Source: Verrucomicrobium spinosum DSM 4136 = JCM 18804 | GTDB lineage: Bacteria; Verrucomicrobiota; Verrucomicrobiia; Verrucomicrobiales; Verrucomicrobiaceae | NCBI RefSeq assembly: GCF_000172155.1 | Contig: NZ_ABIZ01000001.1 | Coordinates: 682,001 to 746,000, forward strand | Direction: 5' to 3' | DNA length: 64,000 nucleotides | Shown here: piece after piece, positions 29,834 to 63,800 of the stretch | Position numbering within the stretch: position 1 is the first letter of the stretch | Layout: each line of letters opens with the position of its first letter | The notes under the pieces: model-generated | The model's database searches: none | What the model was told of the DNA's origin: nothing | Seen by the model: only the letters and a program-made list of their open reading frames with translations | Program-made: the position numbers and the translations under genes

Positions 29834-29974
29834 CTTTGGGATATGGCGTCAGGGGCGGGCAAAGCGATGGGCGAACCGCTCCGCGGTTCAGATCTGGCCC
29901 TGTGTACCATAGGTAGTCCTCGCTCCGCTCGGCCGACCTATGGCTATTCATGGTGAACCCTCCGGGTTCGAGTT
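29834..29974 (+). repeat. REP-like hairpin set (copy behind the transposase remnant)
   Basis: Three hairpins follow one another: GAACCGC-TCC-GCGGTTC, CCATAGGT...ACCTATGG and GAACCC-TCC-GGGTTC. The same series follows the intact transposase at 30930-31026, almost base for base, so the two blocks are copies of one repeat. Confidence 0.75.
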
Positions 29975-30200: not shown

Positions 30201-30327
30201 ATTACGAAAGCGGGGGGCGAGCCCCGAAGCTATTGCTGCCTACAAGAGCCCAATTTGTGTCAGGCATCACCCATTCTCTCGCACGGCACTTGTGGTGAAC
30301 TTATCTGTTTTGGAGTGTACGCAGCCT

Positions 30328-30424
30328 GAACCCGGAGGGTTCGCCAACCGTAGCCATGGGTCGGCCGAGCATAGCGAGGACTACCCATGGTAGAGGCAGA
30401 GCAACTTGAACCGCGAAGCGGTTC
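30328..30424 (+). repeat. REP-like hairpin set upstream of the transposase
   Basis: GAACCC-GGA-GGGTTC (30328-30342), CCATGGGT...ACCCATGG (30354-30390) and GAACCGC-GAA-GCGGTTC (30408-30424) are the same three hairpins as those downstream of the transposase, but in opposite order and orientation. The transposase gene is therefore bracketed by an inverted pair of REP-like units, the arrangement expected of a RAYT and its target repeats. Confidence 0.75.
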
Positions 30425-30448
30425 GCCCATCGCAGCCAACCGCCCCTG

Positions 30449-30895
30449 ATGTCCACCTACACCCAGATCCTCTACCACGTGGTGTTCTCGACCAAGGATC
30501 GAGAGCGGGTCCTTGCCAAAGCCGGACGCGATGATCTCTACCGTTTCATCTGGGGCACGCTCAAAGAGCGCGAATCGCATCTCTATCGGATCGGTGGCGT
30601 GGAAGATCATGTGCATATGCTGATCACGTTGCATCCATCTATTGCGCTGGCGGATCTTGTGAAGGAGGTGAAAACCGCCTCATCCAAATGGATCAAGGGC
30701 ACCGGCACGTTCCCCCATTTCACAAGTTGGCAGCCGGGATATGGGGCGTTTACGCACTCCCTGGCGGAGAAGGACGACTTGATTGAATACATCAAGAGCC
30801 AGGAGGAGCATCACAAGGTGGTGTCCTTCCGGGAGGAGTATGAGGCCATGTTGAAGAAAGCGGGCTTGGTCTTGAATCCGGCGTATGAGTATTGA
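30449..30895 (+). mobile_element. IS200/IS605-type Y1 (RAYT-like) transposase
   Basis: This complete 148-residue HUH single-strand transposase has the His-x-His metal motif H54-V-H56 in VEDHVHMLITL and the catalytic tyrosine Y114 in LIEYIKSQEEHH. GYGAFTHS and the length are typical of the IS200-related group. It is bracketed by inverted REP-like hairpin sets (30328-30424 and 30930-31026), so it is best described as a REP-associated tyrosine transposase rather than a classic IS200, though the two grade into each other. The reading frame is intact, and a truncated relative lies about 650 bases upstream. Confidence 0.9.
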
Positions 30896-30929
30896 GGATA
30901 TGGCGTCAGGGGCGGGCAAGGCGATGGGC

Positions 30930-31026
30930 GAACCGCTCCGCGGTTCAATCCTCGGCACGCCAACCATAGGTAGTCCTCGCTCCGCTCGGCCGACCTATGG
31001 CTATTCATGGTGAACCCTCCGGGTTC
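30930..31026 (+). repeat. REP-like hairpin set downstream of the transposase
   Basis: GAACCGC-TCC-GCGGTTC (30930-30946), CCATAGGT...ACCTATGG (30964-31000) and GAACCC-TCC-GGGTTC (31012-31026) form the right-hand unit of the inverted pair around the transposase. It is nearly the same as 29855-29970. These hairpins could also act as weak transcriptional or RNA-stability signals. Confidence 0.75.
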
Positions 31027-31150
31027 GAGTTGCGCTGCATTACATGGTTCGGTGCTGAGCTGACGATGGAGGCGCTTCGTGCCTAATGTCGGATCCAGAA
31101 CGCGCCTTGGGATTCGTCTTCCTCATAGCCCGCCCGCCCGCCGCCATCCC

Positions 31151-57706: not shown

Positions 57707-57862
57707 TCCAAGGGTGTGGTAGTAGTAGAACAACCCCTCCGCGCCCATGCCGGGGTTCTCCTCCACCGAGTAGTACTCCCCCAGCCATTGCAGCGCCTCC
57801 TGCACGCGGGGATCCTCCGGCGTCAGACCGGCGTAGATGAAGCTGGGCATGCTCGCGAGTGA
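57707..57862 (-). pseudogene. Fragment of a squalene/prenyltransferase-repeat protein gene
   Basis: On the minus strand the stretch SLASMPSFIYAGLTPEDPRV, QEALQWLGEYYSVEENPGM and GAEGLFYYYHTLG reads like part of the repeat domain of squalene-cyclase-like proteins found in Planctomycetes and Verrucomicrobiota. The likeness stops sharply after TLG, where a sequence resembling an intergenic repeat begins (57630-57706). Neither the upstream nor downstream part of the gene is nearby, so this is a relic. Confidence 0.55.
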
Positions 57863-57936: not shown

Positions 57937-58042
57937 TTCGTCGATTTCGTGCATTTCGTGCTTTTCGTACTTCGTACGGCGATATTCAGCGCCGCAGGGC
58001 TGCTGGTCCATTTCGTTCTTTTCGTGCATTTCGTACTTCGTA
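57937..58042 (+). repeat. Short TTCGT-type repeats
   Basis: The words TTCGTCGA, TTTCGTGCA and TTCGTACTTCGT repeat in two clusters (57937-57977 and 58009-58042). The same words occur in reverse complement (ACGAAGTACGAAATGCACGA type) inside each copy of the 0.7-kb tandem unit downstream, at about 58858, 59570 and 60284. No coding function is seen. Confidence 0.6.
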
Positions 58043-58220: not shown

Positions 58221-58290
58221 AGAGAGACGAATTGGAGAGGAGGGAAGCTGTCCAGTAGTCTATCCTGGGCAGCCTCTGGTAGCTGGTGGG

Positions 58291-58980
58291 ATGGCACATC
58301 CGGCCTACACCCGAGGCGACGCAGCGGGCGTAGTCCGAGGGTCCCCGTCGGCGCGGGAGCGAAGGGGGATGATGGGAGAAGTCGAGGACAACAGACCGAC
58401 CCGCTGGCGGCGTCCTGGTCGGAGAGGGTGCCTCTCGACAAACTCCGCATCCTGCGCGCGCGTGTGGCGGACCAGAGTCTGTCGAAACTGGGTGACCTCG
58501 GCCAGCAGGCGAGGCTTGCAGACGCATCAGCTAGTGCCCCCTCACGTTGACAACTACAGGGGCGCTGCAGTGGGTGAGAGCAGAGGCGTGGGCCATCGGG
58601 GTGTGTGCGGAGGCAGAAGGTCTTTGAGGAAACCCTCTGCCGTGTGGCCAACAACGTCGGTCGTAGTTGACGACGTGAGGAGGCGCTAACTCCCCGGTAT
58701 GCGGTGTTTCCCCATGGAGTGCTGCCAAGTGCCCAAGGGCTGCTCTATGGCCGCGAGGCGCGACAGAACCAAACACTCCAGACATCTGCTTCCCGAGGAG
58801 GGTGCAACTTCGGAATGAGGCGGGCATTCCAGGCACCGCAGGAGCGGATCTTCTCTTAACGAAGTACGAAATGCACGAAAAGAACGAAATCGACGAACCG
58901 ACGCGACCTGGGCAGCGAGGCCCCTGAGGCGAAGGAGATTGGTGATTTGGACGCGTGCGTTCCTGCGGCGACTGAGCCGG
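58291..58980 (+). repeat. Tandem 0.7-kb repeat, copy 1 (690 bases)
   Basis: The copy begins ATGGCACATCCGGCCTACAC. It is near-identical to copies 2 and 3 except that about 20 bases are missing or changed near 58567 and a CG dinucleotide run is two bases shorter near 58460. It contains the inverted-repeat element at 58529-58691. Open frames in it conflict between strands and carry no recognisable domain. Confidence 0.85.
58529..58691 (+). repeat. Inverted-repeat element inside the tandem unit (three copies)
   Basis: Two 29-base arms, starting AGCTAGTGCCCCCTCACG (58529) and ending GTGAGGAGGCGCTAACT (58691), are reverse complements at 24 of 29 positions and enclose about 105 bases. The same element lies at 59221-59403 and 59933-60115, each 183 bases. 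Size and imperfect terminal repeats suggest a MITE-like or REP-like mobile relic carried along in the tandem duplication. Confidence 0.6.
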
Positions 58981-59692
58981 ATGGCACATCCGGCCTACAC
59001 CCGAGGCGACGCAGCGGGCGTAGTCCGAGGGTCCCCGTCGGCGCGGGAGCGAAGGGGGATGATGGGAGAAGTCGAGGACAACAGACCGACCCGCTGGCGG
59101 CGTCCTGGTCGGAGAGGGTGCCTCTCGACAAACTCCGCATCCTGCGCGCGCGCGTGTGGCGGACCAGAGTCTGTCGAAACTGGGTGACCTCGGCCAGCAG
59201 GCGAGGCTTGCAGACGCATCAGCTAGTGCCCCCTCACGTTGACAACTACAGGGGCGCTGGGTGGTGAGCGAGCAAACACCAGTGGGTGAGAGCAGAGGCG
59301 TGGGCCATCGGGGTGTGTGCGGAGGCAGAAGGTCTTTGAGGAAACCCTCTGCCGTGTGGCCAACAACGTCGGTCGTAGTTGACGACGTGAGGAGGCGCTA
59401 ACTCCCCGGTATGCGGTGTTTCCCCATGGAGTGCTGCCAAGTGCCCAAGGGCTGCTCTATGGCCGCGAGGCGCGACAGAACCAAACACTCCAGACATCTG
59501 CTTCCCGAGGAGGGTGCAACTTCGGAATGAGGCGGGCATTCCAGGCACCGCAGGAGCGGATCTTCTCTTAACGAAGTACGAAATGCACGAAAAGAACGAA
59601 ATCGACGAACCGACGCGACCTGGGCAGCGAGGCCCCTGAGGCGAAGGAGATTGGTGATTTGGACGCGTGCGTTCCTGCGGCGACTGAGCCGG
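58981..59692 (+). repeat. Tandem 0.7-kb repeat, copy 2 (712 bases)
   Basis: This is a full-length copy, nearly identical to copy 3. It starts with the hairpin CCGGATG-GCA-CATCCGG at the junction with copy 1 and ends with the ACGAA-type short repeats plus a 70-base joining segment. Confidence 0.9.
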
Positions 59693-60322
59693 ATGGCACA
59701 TCCGGCCTACACCCGAGGCGACGCAGCGGGCGTAGTCCGAGGGTCCCCGTCGGCGCGGGAGCGAAGGGGGATGATGGGAGAAGTCGAGGACAACAGACCG
59801 ACCCGCTGGCGGCGTCCTGGTCGGAGAGGGTGCCTCTCGACAAACTCCGCATCCTGCGCGCGCGCGTGTGGCGGACCAGAGTCTGTCGAAACTGGGTGAC
59901 CTCGGCCAGCAGGCGAGGCTTGCAGACGCATCAGCTAGTGCCCCCTCACGTTGACAACTACAGGGGCGCTGGGTGGTGAGCGAGCAAACACCAGTGGGTG
60001 AGAGCAGAGGCGTGGGCCATCGGGGTGTGTGCGGAGGCAGAAGGTCTTTGAGGAAACCCTCTGCCGTGTGGCCAACAACGTCGGTCGTAGTTGACGACGT
60101 GAGGAGGCGCTAACTCCCCGGTATGCGGTGTTTCCCCATGGAGTGCTGCCAAGTGCCCAAGGGCTGCTCTATGGCCGCGAGGCGCGACAGAACCAAACAC
60201 TCCAGACATCTGCTTCCCGAGGAGGGGGCAACTTCGGAATGAGGCGGGCATTCCGGGCACCGCAGGAGCGGATCTTCTCTTAACGAAGTACGAAATGCAC
60301 GAAAAGAACGAAATCGACGAAC
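59693..60322 (+). repeat. Tandem 0.7-kb repeat, copy 3 (ends early)
   Basis: Same as copy 2 with very few substitutions seen (for example a T-to-G change near 60227 and an A-to-G change near 60253). Similarity ends after CGACGAAC at 60322, so the joining segment at the end of copies 1 and 2 is missing. Confidence 0.9.
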
Positions 60323-60822: not shown

Positions 60823-63800
60823 ATGTTCTTTCCCATATCCTCTATCCTTCAGTCCCGACGCCCACCTGCTGGTGCCGGAGCTCCCTTGATCATGCCCCTG
60901 CTGCTCGCTTTGTTGCTGGCGGGGACCTCCCGATCCTTTGCGGCCCCCTTGTATTGGGATCTCAATGGAGATGTCGCAGGCAGCGGCTCCGCGACACCCA
61001 CTGGCGTGTGGGACCTGACCACGCAGAACTGGAATGCCACCGCTACAGGAGATGTCACACTGCCTGGCGTGTGGGCCAACACCGGTGCCGATACGGCCGT
61101 CTTTTCCGCAGGGACAGACGCGACTGGCAGCTATGAAATCACGGTAAATGGCGCGCTGCTGCTATCCGGCATCACCATTGAAGAAGGCGGCCCCATCACG
61201 CTGGCGCAGGGCACGGATGCGGCCCTGGGTTTCGGTGCCGTGCAGGCGCAGATTTATGTCGCTCCGGGAGCCACCTTGATCTCCAACGTCGCTCTCTCCG
61301 GCACGGCGGGACTCGCCAAGTCTGGCGCAGGCACGCTGTATCTGAACAACGCCTCTGCTCCCTCCGGTCCGTATCTGGTCAGCTCCGGCACGCTGGTGAT
61401 TGGCGACGGCCTGTCCATCAGCGGGACGACGCTGAATCTGGGTGGCGTGGCAGGGCTGTCCTCCACCGTCACCCTGGGCACGGGCACCGTCTATAATCTG
61501 GCAGGCGCGATTAATTTCCTGAATGCCAACACGCCCCTCACAGCGCTCATTCAGGGCGGGACCATCACGCTCAATGGCACGCGCAACCTCTCCGCGCAGA
61601 ACATCGCCGCGCTGATCGATCTGGAGATTCGATCGGTCATCGCGGACGGCACGGCTTCCTCCGGCGTTAACAAGACTTCTGCAGGGACGATCCTCCTCTC
61701 TGGCAGCAACACCTACACCGGGGTCACCAACGTGACGGCCGGGACGCTGCAGATTTCAGGCGGTGGTTCCATCGCCTCCAGTTCTGCCGCGACGGTGGCG
61801 GCTGGCACCACACTCACCTTTGGTTCCAATACCGACACCGTGGCGGTGAACCGCGTGGGAGATGCAGCCATCATCACACTCACGGCCGGAGGCAACAACG
61901 ATGTGACCAACCTCAACTTCAATGGCTCCGATTTCGCGACCCAGACCGTGCAGGTGGAAACCGTCGGTGGGCTGGTCATTGCCGGCCAGGCCCGCTCATA
62001 TGTATCCCTAAAGGCGGGCGCTGGCGATGAGTATGAACTGAGACTGGGCTCTCTCACCCGGAGCGGGGACGCCTTGGGGTTGATCCGCGCAGACGGCCTG
62101 GGGCAGAGTGCGGGAACGGCGGGGGCTGTGAGAATTTATGTCAGCGAACCGCTCAATCTCTTCGGCACTACAGGCGGCATTTTGACCTGGCTGGTGGGAG
62201 ATTCATCCACCACGGGAACGGGCACCGGATTCCTCACCTATGACTCCACGAACGGCCTGCGTCTGCTGAACTCCAGCGAGTACACCCTGGTCACGGCCAC
62301 CTCCCTGACGGCAGGGGTGAATGCCGTGAAATCCGCTGCCGGTGCCTTGACGCTGTCGAACTCAGTGCGCGTGAACTCCTGGGCGGCGAACAACACGGGT
62401 GCGGTCACTCTGGGCACAGGCGTGACCCTGGGCATTGACAGCGGCGGTCTGCTCTTCTCCGCCAATGGAGCCTTCACGGCAGGTGTGGTGGATCTCGCCT
62501 CCTACACTCAGGGCATCGTGCATCTGGCGAGCGGCGGCAACCTCACCGCCACCATCAGCAGCGTTCTGGCCGGGGATTCCGGCGTGCTCTACAACGGCAC
62601 CGGCAGCGGCACCAAGATTCTCGCGTTGGGTGGAGACAACACTTTCACCGGTGGATTGACTGTGATGAACGGCACGGTGGAATTGAGGACCAGCGAGGCC
62701 CTGAACAAGTCAGGAGTCAACTCGCTCAACATGCTGGGTGGCACACTTCGACTGAATGGCTACAATGCGACCGTCGCCTCGTTGGATGGAGGCGGCACGG
62801 TCAACAACAACGCCGCCACTGCCAGCACGCTTACCGTCAATGGCGGCGGCACCTTCACTGGCAACCTCAACAACGGATCGACCGGCGCGCTTGCGTTGAC
62901 CAAAAAAGGGGGCGGAACCTTGATCCTCGGAGGTGCCAACGCCTACACCGGAGAGACGATCGTGGAGGAGGGCATCCTCTATGTGAACCAGACCGGAAAT
63001 TCGAGCACTGGCGGCACCCTCAGTGGCACCACCACCATCACGGTGAAGCAGGGCGGCACCTTCCGCATCAACAACGGCAATGCCAGCAACAACAGTGGCA
63101 ACCGCGTCAACGATGCTGCGGTGATCACCTTGGCCGGCGGTGCGTTTACGTATGCTTCCAACAATACGGCCGGGTTGAACTACAGTGAAACTGTGGGCAC
63201 CTTGAATCTCACCACCGGAGCGAGCGTGCTCACCACGCAGCCTGCGGATGCGGCCAACACCTCCACGTTCACCTTTGCCAGCTTCGGCACCCGCGCTGCT
63301 GGTGCCACGTTAAACTTCGGCGGCGGCAGCCTGGGCACAACCCAGAACAAAGTGGTCTTCATCAGCGGTGTCGCTGACGGCTTTCTGGGGGGCTGGGCCA
63401 CGAGCGGTAACGAATTTGTGAAGTACGTCACCGGCACCGGCATCATCGCCATGAGCGGCTCGGATTATCTCACCACCGCCGCCACGGGCTGGAATTCCAC
63501 CGTCCACGCCAAGCCCTCAGCCGACCAGACGCTCAGCACCTCCTATGACGTTGCCTCATTGAACCTCGTGGCGGGGATCGACGTGAATCTGGGAGCTAAT
63601 ACCCTGGCCACAGCCAGCGGCGGCTTGATCAAGTCCGGCGGCACGGTGGATGGCACAGGCTCCAGCATCAGCATCATCTCGGGTACCGGCAAATTGACGG
63701 CGGGAAACACGGCGGCGGCGGCCGAACTGTTTGTAAGAATCACCGGGGCCAATCTCCGCGTAGGGGCCGTGGTGGGCGACAATGCAGCAGGCGGCGTTGT

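Follow-up and report, generated by a model that had tools for sequence, protein, structure and literature searches.

The window analysed in this work is a 64,000-nucleotide stretch of the genome of Verrucomicrobium spinosum DSM 4136 (G000, a single contig of 8,220,857 bp), covering C1:682001-746000. Upstream of the array lie an OprB porin gene and glpX, and the gap that contains it, of about 3.3 kb, is followed by a putative reading frame near 60830. An earlier, sequence-only reading of this DNA had described three near-identical tandem units of about 0.7 kb without an obvious gene. As listed in Table 1, three direct copies in register were confirmed, with starts 690 and 712 bp apart and a period of 712 bp. 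The window contained neither a tRNA nor an Rfam family at gathering score, and the array held short mechanical ORFs only, so the absence of an obvious gene is supported as far as these tests go. Tandem Repeats Finder, run with a longest period of 500, listed only the inner ACGAA repeats in the array region.

Table 1. Features of the array and of its surroundings, in positions of the window
Feature	Position	Strand	Remark
Y1 (RAYT-like) transposase gene	30449-30895	+	among the five best Y1 matches; inverted repeats of about 130 bp at 30320-30449 and 30906-31034; further copy at 29849-29969
Inverted ACGAA (TTCGT) array upstream of the units	57937-57975	-	
Second inverted TTCGT array upstream of the units	58012-58041	-	
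Unit copy 1	58289-58978	+	690 bp; CG run shorter by 2 bp, M by 20 bp
REPIN, copy 1	58289-58351	.	two inverted GTAG-tagged REP hairpins
P module, copy 1	58472-58538	+	
M module, copy 1	58540-58682	+	inverted K motifs at its borders; 20 bp deleted
R module, copy 1	58683-58825	+	
ACGAA array, copy 1	58859-58897	+	five ACGAA, mostly at a 9-bp period
81-bp spacer, ACGAA array to next REPIN	58898-58978 (copy 1), again 59610-59690	+	once per locus in two relatives
REPIN, copy 2	58977-59041	.	two inverted GTAG-tagged REP hairpins
Unit copy 2	58979-59690	+	712 bp; reference
P module, copy 2	59164-59230	+	
M module, copy 2	59232-59394	+	
R module, copy 2	59395-59537	+	
ACGAA array, copy 2	59571-59609	+	five ACGAA
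REPIN, copy 3	59689-59753	.	two inverted GTAG-tagged REP hairpins
Unit copy 3	59691-60322	+	632 bp; ACGAA array is its last part, the final 80 bp being absent
P module, copy 3	59876-59942	+	
M module, copy 3	59944-60106	+	
R module, copy 3	60107-60249	+	
ACGAA array, copy 3	60283-60321	+	five ACGAA

Copy 1 aligned with copy 2 without a substitution; the two gaps, one of 2 bp in the CG run and one of 20 bp after 58567, are the shorter CG run and the 20-base change noticed before. Copies 2 and 3 differed by 2 substitutions across 632 positions, and both counts support the recent duplication that had been proposed. Copy 1 had also been taken for an older copy, which was not borne out. As no substitution separates it from copy 2, it is not older; meanwhile, the 20 bp absent from its M module were kept in all 28 of the other full-length M copies aligned (full-length copies only, the shorter ones, e.g. 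L017, L018, L019, L023 and L028, being left out). Hence, the gap marks a loss in copy 1 rather than a sign of age. With only these 2 positions telling copies 2 and 3 apart, the array might be taken for an assembly artefact, with one copy in the genome. We regard this as very improbable, since 22 bp of gaps distinguish copy 1, and copy 3 has two substitutions and a right flank of its own.

Modules of the unit and their dispersed copies

Dispersed non-coding repeats are combined in the unit, which is a mosaic of a GTAG-type REPIN (unit positions 1-63), a P-M-R element with K motifs (174-560) and an ACGAA array (592-631). M measures about 162 bp and is bordered by inverted copies of the 20-bp motif K, CTCCTCACGTCGACAACTAC. 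The hairpin, the inverted-repeat element and the ACGAA repeats named in the sequence-only reading are present in the units as the REP palindrome, the K ... K' pair around M and the ACGAA arrays, respectively.

The first REP of the unit reads GTAGGCCGGATGTGCCATCC on the minus strand, and in copies 2 and 3 it closes to CCGG; its inverted partner GTAGTCCGAGGGTCCCCGTCGG stands about 21 bp off in all three copies. When up to 3 mismatches were permitted, the first REP was found at 29 places of the genome, 3 of them being the array itself, while the reversed control gave 4. Among the loci looked at, which represented 20 of the 29 places, a second GTAG lay at most about 30 bp away at 10 of the 17 other REP loci. 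As for a cognate RAYT gene, the exact REP did not flank any of the five best Y1 genes, and it gave no match in 15 Y1 loci (of 39 Y1 matches). The Y1 gene of locus L168 carries on both sides GTAGCCGGTGGTGACAACCACCGG, a similar, non-identical GTAG hairpin. The Rfam family Acido-Lenti-1 (RF01687) matched the GTAG hairpin beside this transposase gene (L168:1312-1357), the sole Rfam match in eight related or Y1 loci; the Acido-Lenti-1 candidate RNA may partly be a REP element.

As DNA, the unit matched in 3 of 38 genomes, all of one genus, and a fourth genome of that genus (76% complete) was without a match. Allowing at most 2 mismatches, K occurred at 66, 104 and 74 sites in G000, G001 and G003 (BvORR106), respectively, against 1, 0 and 1 for the control; by letters, six of the 66 sites in G000 belong to the array. 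G003 was identified as BvORR106 because two of its loci occur letter for letter within L086. Three genomes of other genera contained 0 K sites. In the own-genome search for the unit, 40 of 103 candidates were scored, so copy counts are lower bounds, and the loci compared are the best-scoring ones rather than every copy.

Module maps were drawn for 22 other loci of the same genome. The order P-M-R was found at three (L004, L006, L013) and E, a hairpin module described below, followed by M-R at four (L005, L007, L008, L012). P-M followed by an inverted E was found at six (L009, L010, L011, L014, L015 and L028, with R seen at 4 of them). Single loci showed P-E-R without M (L021), E-M (L023) and a reversed form in which M and E are both reversed beside P (L016), while the remaining six had partial, single or no modules (L017, L018, L019, L020, L024, L029). 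Elsewhere, the REPIN also lay near P-M-R modules, as REPIN-P-M-E' in the same order as here (L074), as R, spacer end and REPIN (L083), and as R and REPIN (L020). Thus, the company of REPIN and P-M-R is not unique to the array. A tandem repeat of about 143 bp adjoins P-M-R on the left side in L004:901-1499 and on the right side in L006:1858-2292. Two relatives hold four copies (L245, L250, L253, L259) of a second K-bounded element, of about 180 bp with a GTAG start and a CTAC end, whose K motifs face outwards; this element, N, gave weak interior matches in L171, the best at 1.8e-4.

The ACGAA motif was found at 11 places in three regions of the genome, with both orientations in every region and 0 places for the reversed control. 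Inverted TTCGT...ACGAA arrays frame about 0.9 kb in L062:298-1196 and about 5.4 kb in L063 (351-473 and 5817-7567), and several of them have the core CTTCGTACGGAG. We also considered the ACGAA arrays as a phylum-wide element and rejected the idea. The exact four-fold 9-bp pattern occurred in 9 of 194 genomes, our own included, and elsewhere the repeats were mostly perfect copies of a single 9-mer of different letters, so that no common ACGAA element is shown.

An expressed non-coding RNA was among the functions offered for the unit. In one form, the unit would encode a structured RNA whose gene was amplified for dosage, and the 83% mean column identity of M over 29 copies from three genomes, with its outer stem conserved, speaks for it. 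However, the window gave no Rfam hit and the eight related or Y1 loci gave a single one, a hairpin beside a Y1 gene. Folding was no better than that of dinucleotide shuffles (z -0.25 for the unit and -0.85 for the core), the covariation term for M was 0, with one double-sided change at each of 4 of 33 pairs, and among the copies the module order varies and parts are lost. The stem of M is conserved by sequence rather than by covariation. On sequence grounds, therefore, an expressed RNA found no support, and amplification of an RNA gene is quite unlikely.

The hairpin module E and Y1 transposases

E is a 300-360-bp cluster of hairpins that lies mostly at one point of K and carries no transposase gene. 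In three Verrucomicrobium genomes, matching pieces of the family number at least 44, 47 and 57, with at most 40 candidates scored per genome. In a wider search that scored at most 12 per genome, E was matched in 13 of 57 genomes: three belong to the same genus, and 10, with short pieces only, to other genera of the family. Thirty E loci were compared, and the left end could be aligned in 21. GTGCC stood directly left of E in 19 of these 21 (exceptions L187 and L207), and K stood at the right end in 14, the other 7 ending otherwise. Among E pieces whose alignment reached the right end, K came next in 15 of 16.

Cross-species pairs of loci with different E content were set against each other. 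The pair L005 (E present) and L067 (E absent) was clean on both sides and showed no target duplication. The pair L016 and L076 had the same K junction, but about nine letters before GTGCC also differed, and L076 starts at a contig end. In the pair L007/L073 the difference was a replacement upstream of K, and the pair L011/L066 was not colinear. The filled and empty pairs indicate that E can occur or be missing as one block, whichever the direction of change.

E stands on either side of M in mirror orientation. A shufflon-like inversion of E-M blocks was considered and judged unnecessary: because K faces opposite ways at the two ends of M, a single rule of insertion accounts for both arrangements. 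Locus L016 remains unexplained by that rule. An IS110 or bridge-RNA origin of E was provisionally dropped, the search for the IS110 domain having returned two hits, both below the family cut-off. The 40 most recurrent ORFs listed (137 loci) look like readings of E, and none of them was a recurrent transposase near K.

The Y1_Tnp domain had 39 matches in the genome. Each of the five best (E <= 1.8e-21), the only ones examined for flanks, lies between inverted repeats of about 95-130 bp or more, and one of these genes is in the window (Table 1). A weaker match, L177, spans most of the family. Positions 220-290 of E matched hairpins on both sides of the Y1 gene at L164 three times, inverted between the sides, with 67, 54 and 46 bits; the best score over 200 shuffles of E was 33.7. 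E-like hairpins were seen at this 1 of the 15 Y1 loci examined, and the matching part is one fifth of E. For M, P and R, no match below an E-value of 0.8 was obtained beside a Y1 gene in 15 Y1 loci (of 39 matches) and 2 IS110-like loci. Eleven places carry a Y1 domain broken into two matches, with 145-166 bp between them, in frames of about 272-392 aa; these represent a relative of the Y1 transposases that exists in multiple copies.

These observations allow a more speculative reading, in which K would be a dedicated landing site and transposase-less hairpin cassettes such as E would be moved in and out by a Y1 transposase encoded elsewhere. Verrucomicrobium genomes would in this way build and reshuffle nested intergenic mosaics (P-M-R, P-E-M-R, P-M-E'-R, E-M-E') at many sites, much like a gene-less cassette array. 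We put this forward as a tentative idea that is rather doubtful at present.

The locus in two relatives and the origin of the array

Judged by the neighbouring glpX protein, the nearest named relatives are Verrucomicrobium sp. BvORR034 (L085, 99%) and BvORR106 (L086, 98%). The BvORR106 locus runs from the left flank through the E block, ACGAA array 1, the 81-bp spacer, the REPIN, P-M-inverted E-R and ACGAA array 2 to the right flank. BvORR034 has the same order, except that P-M-R is absent and a weak R-like piece precedes array 1. In the window, the left flank is followed by REPIN-P-M-R-ACGAA three times, with the spacer between copies, and then by the right flank. Positions 58281-58288 and 60323 to about 60425 did not align with the relatives, which indicates that other rearrangements happened at the array edges. 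Further upstream, 57713-57857 on the minus strand is a 145-bp remnant of a gene lying within the BvORR034 minus-strand ORF L085:7921-9750 (residues SFIYAGLTP...YYYHT), the rest being missing here. The 101-aa window ORF of this remnant had no Pfam hit, and the gene product looks like a prenyltransferase-repeat protein.

A search of the genome and of relatives, which had been named as a check on the array, brought out both dispersed modules at other loci and an unamplified arrangement in two relatives. Since both relatives hold the spacer and the REPIN once between direct ACGAA arrays, the period corresponds to the ACGAA-to-ACGAA interval. The array would then most likely have originated by unequal exchange between the direct ACGAA arrays. 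Against this, the interval varies, being about 270 bp in BvORR034 and about 795 bp in BvORR106.

The 631-bp REPIN-P-M-R-ACGAA block might instead be one mobile element inserted repeatedly side by side. The array does begin at a REP palindrome and end at an ACGAA array, copy 3 is without the spacer, and REPIN and P-M-R modules are close together at L074, L083 and L020. However, no other place among the 40 scored of the 103 own-genome candidates matched the whole block. Moreover, the spacer, the REPIN and the two ACGAA arrays are already in both relatives, so duplication in place explains the copies, and repeated insertion of the block is unlikely.

Taken together, the array likely arose, in our judgement, when an old intergenic mosaic of miniature, non-autonomous, BIME-like repeats was recently triplicated in place. 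On the simplest account, the amplification would have begun with slippage or unequal exchange at the pair of direct ACGAA arrays and continued between the 712-bp copies. Repeats of 40 bp, however, are short for RecA-dependent exchange. The leftmost E block would have been lost in V. spinosum, and Y1 (RAYT/IS200-like) transposases may have spread the REPIN and E modules in trans. The array itself probably encodes no product, and effects, if any, would arise from further recombination or from hairpins in transcripts that read through it.

Two other functions had been offered for the unit. A recombination site is partly apt: ACGAA direct repeats do bound the amplified interval and E does lie at a fixed point of K. 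Duplicated junk comes closest among the functions offered, in the sense of a patch of miniature repeats that was duplicated.

As repeat biology, the array is mostly ordinary; the feature that merits further attention is E nested in K. The locus shows how a gene-free island can grow, as miniature hairpin elements nest and short direct repeats then amplify the patch. In addition, the filled and empty sites of E and K could be a natural assay of whether Y1 enzymes of the RAYT or TIRYT type move miniature elements in trans.

Comparison with known repeat systems

Among the titles and abstract openings listed by our literature search on Verrucomicrobium and Verrucomicrobia, in a library with few subscription journals, there was no paper on these repeats. 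The BOX elements of Streptococcus pneumoniae are modular repeats with outer parts and variable inner parts. They resemble the present mosaics in this modular layout, and the difference is that E stands here on either side of M in mirror orientation.

Like the GTAG REPs and REPINs that go with RAYT transposases, the array has paired, inverted, GTAG-tagged hairpins that are also dispersed. Here, however, the REPIN is one piece of a 712-bp mosaic, and a RAYT gene was not found beside the exact REP in the 15 Y1 loci examined. GTAG REPs, REPtrons and TIRtrons are known, and GTAG repeats are reported from the PVC superphylum, including Opitutus terrae of the Verrucomicrobia (PMC3733652). TIRtrons are described there as Y1 transposase genes between long inverted repeats, and some of these repeats are dispersed as families as well. 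Five Y1 genes of the present genome are flanked likewise, one of them with hairpins matching part of E; E differs in being a hairpin cluster mostly at one point of another repeat, K. From their sequences, the flanked Y1 genes at L164 and L168 would fit the TIRtrons and REPtrons as outlined in that source (PMC3733652).

Insertion sequences in REP sequences, e.g. ISPpu9, likewise place one mobile element at another repeat, whereas E carries no transposase gene (PMC8450116). REPINs and tandem REP arrays are known as well (PMC3116915). With the BIMEs (PMC2817692) and the tandem REP arrays (PMC3116915), the present array shares its composition of mosaic and tandem palindromic repeats. The tandem REP arrays are described with spacings of 112 and 72 bp (PMC3116915), whereas the period here is 712 bp and the interval is bounded by ACGAA arrays.
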